A stretch of 50,349 nt of DNA from Alphaproteobacteria bacterium (GTDB taxonomy: Bacteria; Pseudomonadota; Alphaproteobacteria; Micavibrionales; Micavibrionaceae), in NCBI GenBank assembly GCA_021208265.1, contig JAJOJU010000053.1, positions 1 through 50,349 on the forward strand, given 5' to 3'. A program made the position numbers and the translations under genes. Below the pieces are notes generated by a model. That model worked only from the letters and a program-made list of their open reading frames with translations. It did no database searches and was not told the origin of the DNA. The first letter of the stretch is position 1, and each line of letters opens with the position of its first letter. This document shows positions 24,974-27,321 of this stretch, in pieces.

Positions 24974-26284
24974 TTAGTAGCGGTAAGTATCGTTCTTGAA
25001 CGGGCCTTTTTGCGCCACGCCGATATATTCGGCTTGCTCTTTCGAAAGAGTGGAAAGCTTCGCGCCCACTTTTTCAAGATGCAGCATCGCCACTTTTTCA
25101 TCCAGATGTTTGGGCAGAACATAGACTTTGTTGTCGTAAGCGGAGGAGTTATTCCACAGCTCAATCTGCGCCAGTGTCTGGTTGGTGAAGGAAGCACTCA
25201 TCACGAATGATGGGTGGCCGGTGGCGCAGCCCAGGTTCACAAGGCGGCCTTCCGCCAGCAGAACGATTTTCTTGCCGCTCGGGAATTCAATCATATCCAC
25301 CTGCGGCTTAACATTCGTCCATTTCATGTTGCGCAGCGGTTCCACCTGAATTTCATTGTCAAAGTGGCCGATGTTACAAACAATGGCGTAATCTTTCATG
25401 TTGCGCATGTGATCAACGGTGATGATGTCTTTGTTACCGGTTGTGGTCACGAAGATATCGGCCTGCGGCGCGGCATCTTCCATCGTTACCACTTCAAAGC
25501 CTTCCATCGCGGCTTGCAGCGCGCAGATCGGGTCAATTTCAGAAACCATCACGCGGCAGCCCGCCTGACGTAAGCTTTCAGCAGAGCCTTTGCCCACATC
25601 GCCAAAACCCGCCACCATGGCAACTTTACCCGCCATCATAACATCTGTCGCGCGGCGGATCGCATCCACGAGCGATTCACGGCAGCCATATTTGTTGTCG
25701 AATTTCGATTTGGTCACGGAATCGTTCACGTTAATGGCGGGGCACAGAAGCTGGCCTTTCTTCGCCATTTCGTTCAGGCGCAGCACGCCTGTTGTCGTTT
25801 CTTCGGAAATACCTTTGATTTCATCGAAATACTGGGGGTATTTGTCATGCATCATTTTAGTGAGGTCGCCGCCGTCATCCAAAATCATATTGGGCTTCCA
25901 GCCATCGGGGCCGTGGATGGTTTGTTCGATGCACCAGTCATATTCTTCTTCGTTCATGCCTTTCCATGCGAAAACGGGTGTGCCTGTCGCGGCAATCGCG
26001 GCGGCGGCGTGATCTTGGGTGGAGAAGATGTTACAAGAAGACCAGCGTACGGTGGCGCCCAAAGCTTGCAGTGTTTCGATCAGCACGGCTGTTTGAATGG
26101 TCATGTGCAGGCAGCCGACAATGCGCGCGCCTTTTAAGGGCTGGGCAGCGCCATATTCCGCGCGGGTTGCCATCAGGCCCGGCATTTCCACTTCCGCCAG
26201 TTCAATTTCCTTGCGGCCCCATTCGGCGAGGCTGATGTCTTTTACCTTGTAATCGTTGCTAACAGTTTTGGGCTGAGCGGTCAT
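24974..26284 (-). CDS. ahcY: adenosylhomocysteinase
   Basis: AhcY splits S-adenosylhomocysteine, the product of SAM-dependent methylations, into adenosine and homocysteine, using tightly bound NAD+. The 436-residue protein has [36 protein letters not shown], the NAD-binding Rossmann motif [16 protein letters not shown], and a C-terminal end KNDTYRY, which is characteristic of the family. The ATG at 26284 follows AGGAG. A TTGACA sequence lies about 44 bp upstream, inside the tail of the preceding gene, and may be its own promoter. Confidence 0.97.
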
Positions 26285-26648
26285 AATCTGATATCTCCTG
26301 AAAAAATTTGTACCCTGTTTGCTTACCAGACGCAGCCGGGATGTCAACCGCTTCAGGGGCTATAATCAGCGTTTTCCCTGCCTTTGAAAGGGTAAGCGGT
26401 GCTGCTGATTTGGTTGCATGATGGGCATAGGTATGCAAGCCGCTGGCAAATGCCTGATCGATTAAATACTGGGCCTGTTTGAGAAGGCCTGCCTTTGGAC
26501 AGTTTCCCGCCGTTTTCAGACGGTCTAGATTGTTTAAAAACAGCTGGATATCTTCCAATGCTTCGATTTGAACATCGGACAGGTTCTCAGGATAAATTTC
26601 CTGATGGGTGAAAATGGCTTTGAGAGCCGCAATAGAGTTAGTCGTCAT
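26259..26648 (-). CDS. hypothetical protein upstream of ahcY
   Basis: The 129-residue product has a helical N-terminal part ([18 protein letters not shown]) and a C-terminal stretch from about residue 100. I do not recognise it. AAGGAAA precedes the ATG at 26648. Its last 26 bases overlap the start of ahcY, and a -35-like TTGACA lies within its last 25 codons, so the C-terminal part could be affected by a frameshift; a shorter protein is possible. A ~185-nt leader with several hairpins precedes it, and it probably heads the transcription unit that contains ahcY. Confidence 0.55.
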
Positions 26649-26834
26649 AATAGTTTCCTTTTGCGTTTTGGTTAAAAAACGCACCAAGAACATATCGTCA
26701 GGGGAGGGATGGAAAATCGTTCAACCTTGGTTCGTTGCCCTTGTTCCGGCCACATCCTTCTTTCGAAGAAACCACCTTGCCCAAGGAGGCAGGTTGGCAA
26801 GCACCCGGTAACGGGCACTTTCTTGATGCAATAG
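26649..26834 (-). promoter_or_regulatory. structured 5' leader, possible cis-regulatory RNA
   Basis: On the minus strand this ~185-nt region between a good promoter and the gene at 26648 holds several perfect short stems: GGCACT/AGTGCC, CCCG-TTAC-CGGG, CTTGCC/GGCAAG, TTCTTCGAAAGAA and GGATG/CATCC. No reading frame of note fits it. It does not match the SAM, SAH, cobalamin, glycine, TPP, FMN or ZTP consensus as I recall them. The first downstream genes are a hypothetical protein and ahcY, so a link to SAM/SAH is attractive but unproven. Confidence 0.45.
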
Positions 26835-26840
26835 TGCCAC

Positions 26841-26869
26841 CATAAACCATTTTAAAAAAATTTAGTCAA
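26841..26869 (-). promoter_or_regulatory. candidate sigma70 promoter of the ahcY unit
   Basis: On the minus strand TTGACT (complement of 26864-26869) is followed after 17 bp by TTTATG (complement of 26841-26846). Spacing is ideal; the -10 box differs from TATAAT in several places. It would start transcription near 26834, at the beginning of the structured leader. Confidence 0.5.
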
Positions 26870-26931
26870 GCTTTGCCGCTGTTAAGCAAGCGTTAAGAAG
26901 CCTTGGTTATGATAGGGGCAAGGATAAGATT

Positions 26932-27321
26932 ATGGCTATTAACTTTAATGAAAGCACCCAGCAGCAGCGTTTTATCTATAAGCCGCACGAGAGCGAACCT
27001 CATGTGTGGGTGATTTTCGAATACAAGACATATAAGGGCCCCAAGGGTGGTTATGATGCCGTGGGTGATTACAGATTGATTGCGACTGACGAAAACCCGG
27101 AAGTAACCATCAAAAAGCTGGAGGCCATATGCCGTTTGCTGGATGGTAAACAGCCGCTCGAAAATTTCGGAAATTTGACGGAATCCCGGCTTTTATTTAA
27201 TATTAAGAAAAAAGAAGATGTAAACGACCCGACAGTTATGACATTCCGTACGCATGATGGTACGGGGGTCTCACAGGAAAATGCGGTGTTAACAGTAGAG
27301 AAAGGTGTATTGCATGAGTGA
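26932..27321 (+). CDS. hypothetical protein
   Basis: The 129-residue product is soluble and acidic to neutral, with a beta-rich look at its start (FIYKPHESEPHVWVIFEYKTYKG) and a helical middle (TIKKLEAICRLLDGKQPL). I do not recognise the family. AAGGA lies about 10 bases before the ATG. A 52-codon gene starts inside its last codons, so the two are probably translated together. Confidence 0.55.
   Translation: MAINFNESTQQQRFIYKPHESEPHVWVIFEYKTYKGPKGGYDAVGDYRLIATDENPEVTIKKLEAICRLLDGKQPLENFGNLTESRLLFNIKKKEDVNDPTVMTFRTHDGTGVSQENAVLTVEKGVLHE

Follow-up and report, generated by a model that had tools for sequence, protein, structure and literature searches.

A pseudoknot that joins the loop of P3 to a strand 3' of P1 is a class feature of SAM-I/IV riboswitches. 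The class (RF01725) was described by Weinberg et al. in 2010 as the 'SAM-I-IV-variant', is represented in several phyla and in marine sequences, and has a P2 without the internal loop found in SAM-I and SAM-IV (PMC2864571). The gene ahcY is known as a core target of the SAH riboswitch, which precedes it in beta- and gammaproteobacteria (PMC4239095), and the SAM-Chlorobi motif (RF01724) precedes metK-ahcY operons (PMC2864571). A 2014 survey of methionine regulation in proteobacteria treats only SAH, SAM-SAH and SAM-II riboswitches (PMC4239095).

Here we analyse an ahcY leader in a stretch of 50,349 nucleotides from an alphaproteobacterial genome, referred to as the window. A preliminary description had recognised a structured 5' leader upstream of the ahcY unit as a putative cis-regulatory element, had proposed an Rfam search, and had left two readings side by side, a new cis-regulatory RNA or an unrecognised known class.

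Results

The Rfam search decided between these readings in favour of a known class. RF01725, the SAM-I/IV riboswitch, was matched on the minus strand with 53.5 bits, above the curated cut-off of 41.1, over the full length of the model (positions 1-99). At gathering thresholds the whole window gave two matches, a tRNA and this riboswitch, and a permissive search of 26600-26930 (E up to 1) returned no other credible match and no other SAM or SAH class. We found one copy of RF01725 in the genome (assembly of 1.8 Mb in 53 contigs, 79% complete); the nearest AhcY proteins come from Micavibrio-like alphaproteobacteria, with 86% identity to a Micavibrio sp. assembly. Judged by its sequence, the ahcY leader is a member of the known SAM-I/IV class and not a new class of RNA, and we infer that SAM is the ligand of its aptamer.

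Conserved pairing in relatives, the lack of which would have counted against such a leader, is present and covaries. P1, P2, P3 and P5 covary: across the 10 aptamers of the order, 98.3% of cells are paired, and changes on both sides occur in 9 of 23 pairs, against a mean of 4.2 in shuffled data (1 of 500 shuffles was as high); sliding the partner strand lowers pairing to 35-48%. The pseudoknot between P3 loop and tail also covaries, with 28 different sequence pairs among 39 aptamers and a mean match to the own partner of 5.1 versus 4.1 when partners are permuted (p <= 0.0005). Furthermore, the conserved core CAUCAAGA / CCAACCUGC / GCAAGGUGG fits the SAM-I/IV consensus. The folding energy of the leader lies within the range of shuffled sequences (z = -1.41; 19 of 200 fold equally well), and we dropped it as evidence because it is not significant against shuffles. 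The above-chance evidence for the leader consists of the Rfam match, the covariation and the conserved switching helix described below. All five short hairpins of the preliminary description are present on the minus strand, from 26820 to 26653 (P2, P3, the hairpin at 26758-26770, P5 and the SD hairpin; Table 1).

Table 1 Features of the leader and of the ahcY unit, with positions in the window.
Feature	Position	Strand	Remarks
Putative promoter	26839-26869	-	weak consensus; similar position in most relatives
SAM-I/IV aptamer (RF01725)	26721-26834	-	covariance-model match; covariation in 10 sequences
P1 5' strand GCAUC	26825-26829	-	pairs with GAUGU 26752-26756 in the bound form
Aptamer 5' strand GCAUCAAGAA (P1 5' strand and J1/2)	26820-26829	-	possible alternative partner of the anti-SD strand
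P2, 9 contiguous base pairs, no internal loop	26799-26820	-	
P3, conserved core CCAACCUGCC / GGCAAGGUGGU	26771-26798	-	
Pseudoknot strand 1, P3 loop CCUUGG	26781-26786	-	partner CCAAGG 26725-26730
Hairpin between P3 and P1	26758-26770	-	
P5	26737-26751	-	
Pseudoknot strand 2, 3' tail CCAAGG	26725-26730	-	
SD-sequestering hairpin	26653-26696	-	AAGGAAAC at 26653-26660; kept in 8/8 members of the window's family
Anti-SD strand UUCUUGGUGC	26681-26690	-	ON: helix with 26820-26829; OFF: 5' arm of the SD hairpin
First gene, orphan 129-aa protein	26259-26648	-	coding-like codon use
ahcY, S-adenosylhomocysteine hydrolase	24974-26284	-	TIGR00936, 632 bits; start lies within the 3' end of the first gene

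The promoter proposed earlier, a -35/-10 pair with a spacing of 17 bp, is plausible but weak. Its -35 candidate TTGACT (26864-26869, minus strand) agrees with the consensus at 5 of 6 positions and its -10 candidate TTTATG (26841-26846, minus strand) at 3 of 6; a consensus promoter scan did not list the pair, TTTATG lying below the scan threshold. An alternative -10, TATGGT (26839-26844, minus strand), reaches 4 of 6 with a spacing of 19 bp. A comparable -35/-10-like pair is found just 5' of P1 in most relatives.

The operon downstream encodes an orphan protein and AhcY. The former, 129 amino acids long, had no credible relative in phages, plasmids, Pfam, NCBIfam or PHROGs; a marginal match, at 24% and interrupted by stops, came from one alphaproteobacterial genome. 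As ahcY, found as a single copy in the genome, is the second gene of the unit, the leader precedes a gene of the methionine/SAM cycle. That the leader holds no reading frame was nearly right: no gene runs through the segment, but if the first gene began at the in-frame ATG at 26693 it would reach back into the SD hairpin; this added stretch carries no coding signal. The good ribosome-binding site is there as an SD-type AAGGA 5' of the ATG at 26648 (minus strand), but in the ligand-bound form a hairpin is predicted to sequester it.

This arrangement is conserved: all eight members examined in the window's family have the ribosome-binding site inside a hairpin just before the start codon, and the 5' arm of this hairpin is complementary to the aptamer 5' strand (P1 5' strand and J1/2, in most members also the P2 5' strand). 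The resulting competing helix has 13-14 pairs in each of the eight, with p-values of 0.001-0.003 against dinucleotide shuffles of the leader which, because the sequences are related, are not independent tests; in the window it has 13 pairs in all (p = 0.002). The strand from the window pairs best with its own partner (-15.0, versus -6.6 to -13.1 with the partners of other members). Part of the complementarity is due to the SD-like aptamer sequence AAGAAAAGA, whereas the P1 part (GCAU/AUGC, GCAUC/GGUGC) is not SD-like.

Because both the aptamer and the competing helix need the same aptamer 5' strand (P1), the two folds are mutually exclusive. With the aptamer forced, the window leader folds at -58.1 kcal/mol with an SD pairing of 0.95; with the 13-bp competing helix forced, these values are -52.0 kcal/mol and 0.48, and the 10-bp core of that helix gives -56.2 kcal/mol. 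For the other seven family members the corresponding SD pairing values are 0.75-1.00 (aptamer forced) and 0.14-0.62 (competing helix forced). The SD of the window is still about half paired in the ON model, via a weak G-U helix, which is a weakness of the switch model. The alternative pairing GCAUCAAGAA:UUCUUGGUGC is well supported as a candidate switching helix and, together with the SD hairpin, predicts a translational OFF switch; the leader is built as expected for a ligand-OFF translational switch.

Other candidate pairings were rejected. In the window, pairing of the tail with the SD hairpin did not exceed chance (p 0.15-0.37) and was replaced as the switch by the helix with the 5' strand, and pairing of P2 with the downstream region of the window was no better than swapped controls. 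SD hairpins of this kind were few in the genome outside riboswitch loci, and not clearly above a reversed-pattern control.

In two members of another family (L002 and L097) the likely ribosome-binding site, GGAAUA, lies within the pseudoknot strand itself. In many other alphaproteobacterial SAM-I/IV leaders (L130-L158) the sequence just 3' of the aptamer includes a strand complementary to the P2 5' strand and J1/2, for example AGGGCUGACG with GUCAGCCCU, and adjoining a CCUCC:GGAGG hairpin that precedes the start codon. As far as these complementarities indicate, a similar switching scheme may be general across Alphaproteobacteria.

RF01725 was found in 10 of 142 genomes of the order, most relatives having no riboswitch, and in 35 of 385 sampled alphaproteobacterial genomes, where it is fairly common. 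The genes 3' of the leaders of the order and family vary and include an ArgE-like deacetylase, an alpha/beta hydrolase, an N-formylglutamate-amidohydrolase-like protein and small unknown proteins, and MetA and MetF could be recognised in the set of 29 class loci read. When these are taken together with the 10 loci of the order, ahcY lies downstream only in the window, within the flanks examined. Two related 41-aa ORFs ending in CPN directly follow the leader in L093 and L098, and the hydrolase behind the ORF of L098 appears broken. Four SAM-I/IV loci of the family (L094, L096, L098 and L099), but not that of the window, appear to be situated close to the 3' end of groEL.

The flank of the ahcY unit could be compared between relatives. 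A divergent 129-aa gene on the plus strand, orf26932 (26932-27321), has no family match and is kept beside ahcY in several relatives with 24-44% identity. In L005, L006, L008, L009 and L010 its homologue is divergent from ahcY across a gap of about 94-157 nt, with purU downstream in several of them, and no riboswitch was found near ahcY in the close relatives searched, these five included. In the window the gap measures 648 nt and contains the riboswitch together with the 129-aa gene; both look inserted because the gap of the relatives is short and no riboswitch was found there. Insertion of both before ahcY would be the simplest reading of this gene order, and loss from the relatives a less economical one. 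No DNA relatives were found on plasmids.

Discussion

Taken together, family membership, the covarying aptamer and pseudoknot, the conserved SD hairpin with its competing helix, and gene order provide computational support for a SAM-I/IV riboswitch with a translational OFF platform, which most likely acts on the first gene of the unit and reaches ahcY probably through transcription and coupling or polarity. When SAM is high, the aptamer would form P1, P2, P3 and the pseudoknot between P3 loop and tail, so that the anti-SD strand (around 26681-26696) remains available for pairing and occludes the ribosome-binding site of the 129-aa gene. At low SAM, GCAUCAAGAA (P1 5' strand and J1/2) would instead pair with UUCUUGGUGC, so that the SD hairpin opens and translation starts. 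Control of ahcY would probably be exerted through transcription from this promoter together with translational coupling or polarity. The gene is probably controlled from this leader because it begins within the 3' end of the first gene and is preceded by no further SAM or SAH riboswitch. We infer both the sign of control and the effect on ahcY; most likely, plentiful SAM shuts off the orphan gene and ahcY together.

Control of ahcY by the translational switch would be indirect because the gene has its own SD-like AGGAG, directly 5' of its start. This raises the alternative that the riboswitch controls only the 129-aa gene while ahcY is expressed from its own signals, and the same leader does precede unrelated genes elsewhere in the family, and the ahcY genes of relatives have no detectable riboswitch nearby. 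We consider such independence unlikely, although it deserves to be kept in mind: the end of the 129-aa gene overlaps ahcY on the same strand, which leads one to expect co-transcription and coupling, and the promoter scan listed no minus-strand promoter-like site wholly within the 129-aa gene.

That the riboswitch acts by transcription termination and not at the ribosome-binding site is improbable for the window, where no minus-strand terminator was found in the leader and the SD hairpin is followed by AAAAGGAAAC with no U run. The idea comes from three other loci (L093, L094 and L098), which carry an intrinsic terminator, GCGAUCC...GGGUCGC followed by U7, between aptamer and gene, and in which the pseudoknot strand UGGGUC can serve as antiterminator. 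These three loci combine the terminator with an SD hairpin between the aptamer and the first gene, and one riboswitch may therefore act on both transcription and translation. Least credible of all is a drift of the aptamer to SAH sensing that would, in the manner of SAH riboswitches, turn ahcY ON upon accumulation of SAH. Although ahcY is the usual target of SAH riboswitches (PMC4239095) and no SAM-I/IV locus examined other than that of the window precedes ahcY, the core CAUCAAGA / CCAACCUGC / GCAAGGUGG fits the SAM-I/IV consensus and varies little or not at all in the relatives whose leaders precede other genes, no SAH riboswitch family is matched, and the architecture predicts a ligand-OFF switch.

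The analysis resolves a seemingly unknown leader into a known riboswitch class, and adds a case in which ahcY, whose usual known sensors respond to SAH, is placed behind a SAM sensor. It also offers a concrete proposal for the expression platform of SAM-I/IV riboswitches, of which the published description in searchable papers covers the aptamer and not the switch. In the literature searched, which lacks most subscription papers, we found no publication on the switching mechanism of the class or on its occurrence before ahcY, and the helix between aptamer 5' strand and anti-SD strand seems undescribed in searchable papers. The sensor class itself is known; what seems new here is ahcY as a target and the switching helix. 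Moreover, RF01725 is fairly common in the alphaproteobacteria sampled, whereas the 2014 survey covered other SAM and SAH types (PMC4239095). A speculative extension, which we hold to be doubtful, is that a compact SAM-sensing cassette of riboswitch, SD hairpin and variable first gene moves between sites in Micavibrio-like genomes and has landed before ahcY, bringing SAH recycling under SAM-OFF control via a widespread, undescribed switching helix.

Among described systems, the SAH riboswitch (RF01057) shares the position before ahcY, but it has another fold, turns genes on in response to SAH, and has no match in 26600-26930 (E up to 1). The SAM-Chlorobi motif (RF01724) also precedes ahcY, but it is unmatched here, and in preliminary probing it reportedly bound neither SAM nor SAH. 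SAM-II and SAM-SAH riboswitches are SAM-sensing leaders of Alphaproteobacteria too (PMC4239095), with different folds that are likewise unmatched. With SAM-I/IV riboswitches the leader shares a full-length match, the conserved core, a P2 without internal loop and the pseudoknot between P3 loop and tail. Unlike those described, it has a separate SD hairpin 3' of the tail that can pair alternatively with the 5' strand of the aptamer and, unlike the other loci of the class examined, where metA and metF were seen, its putative target is an ahcY operon.
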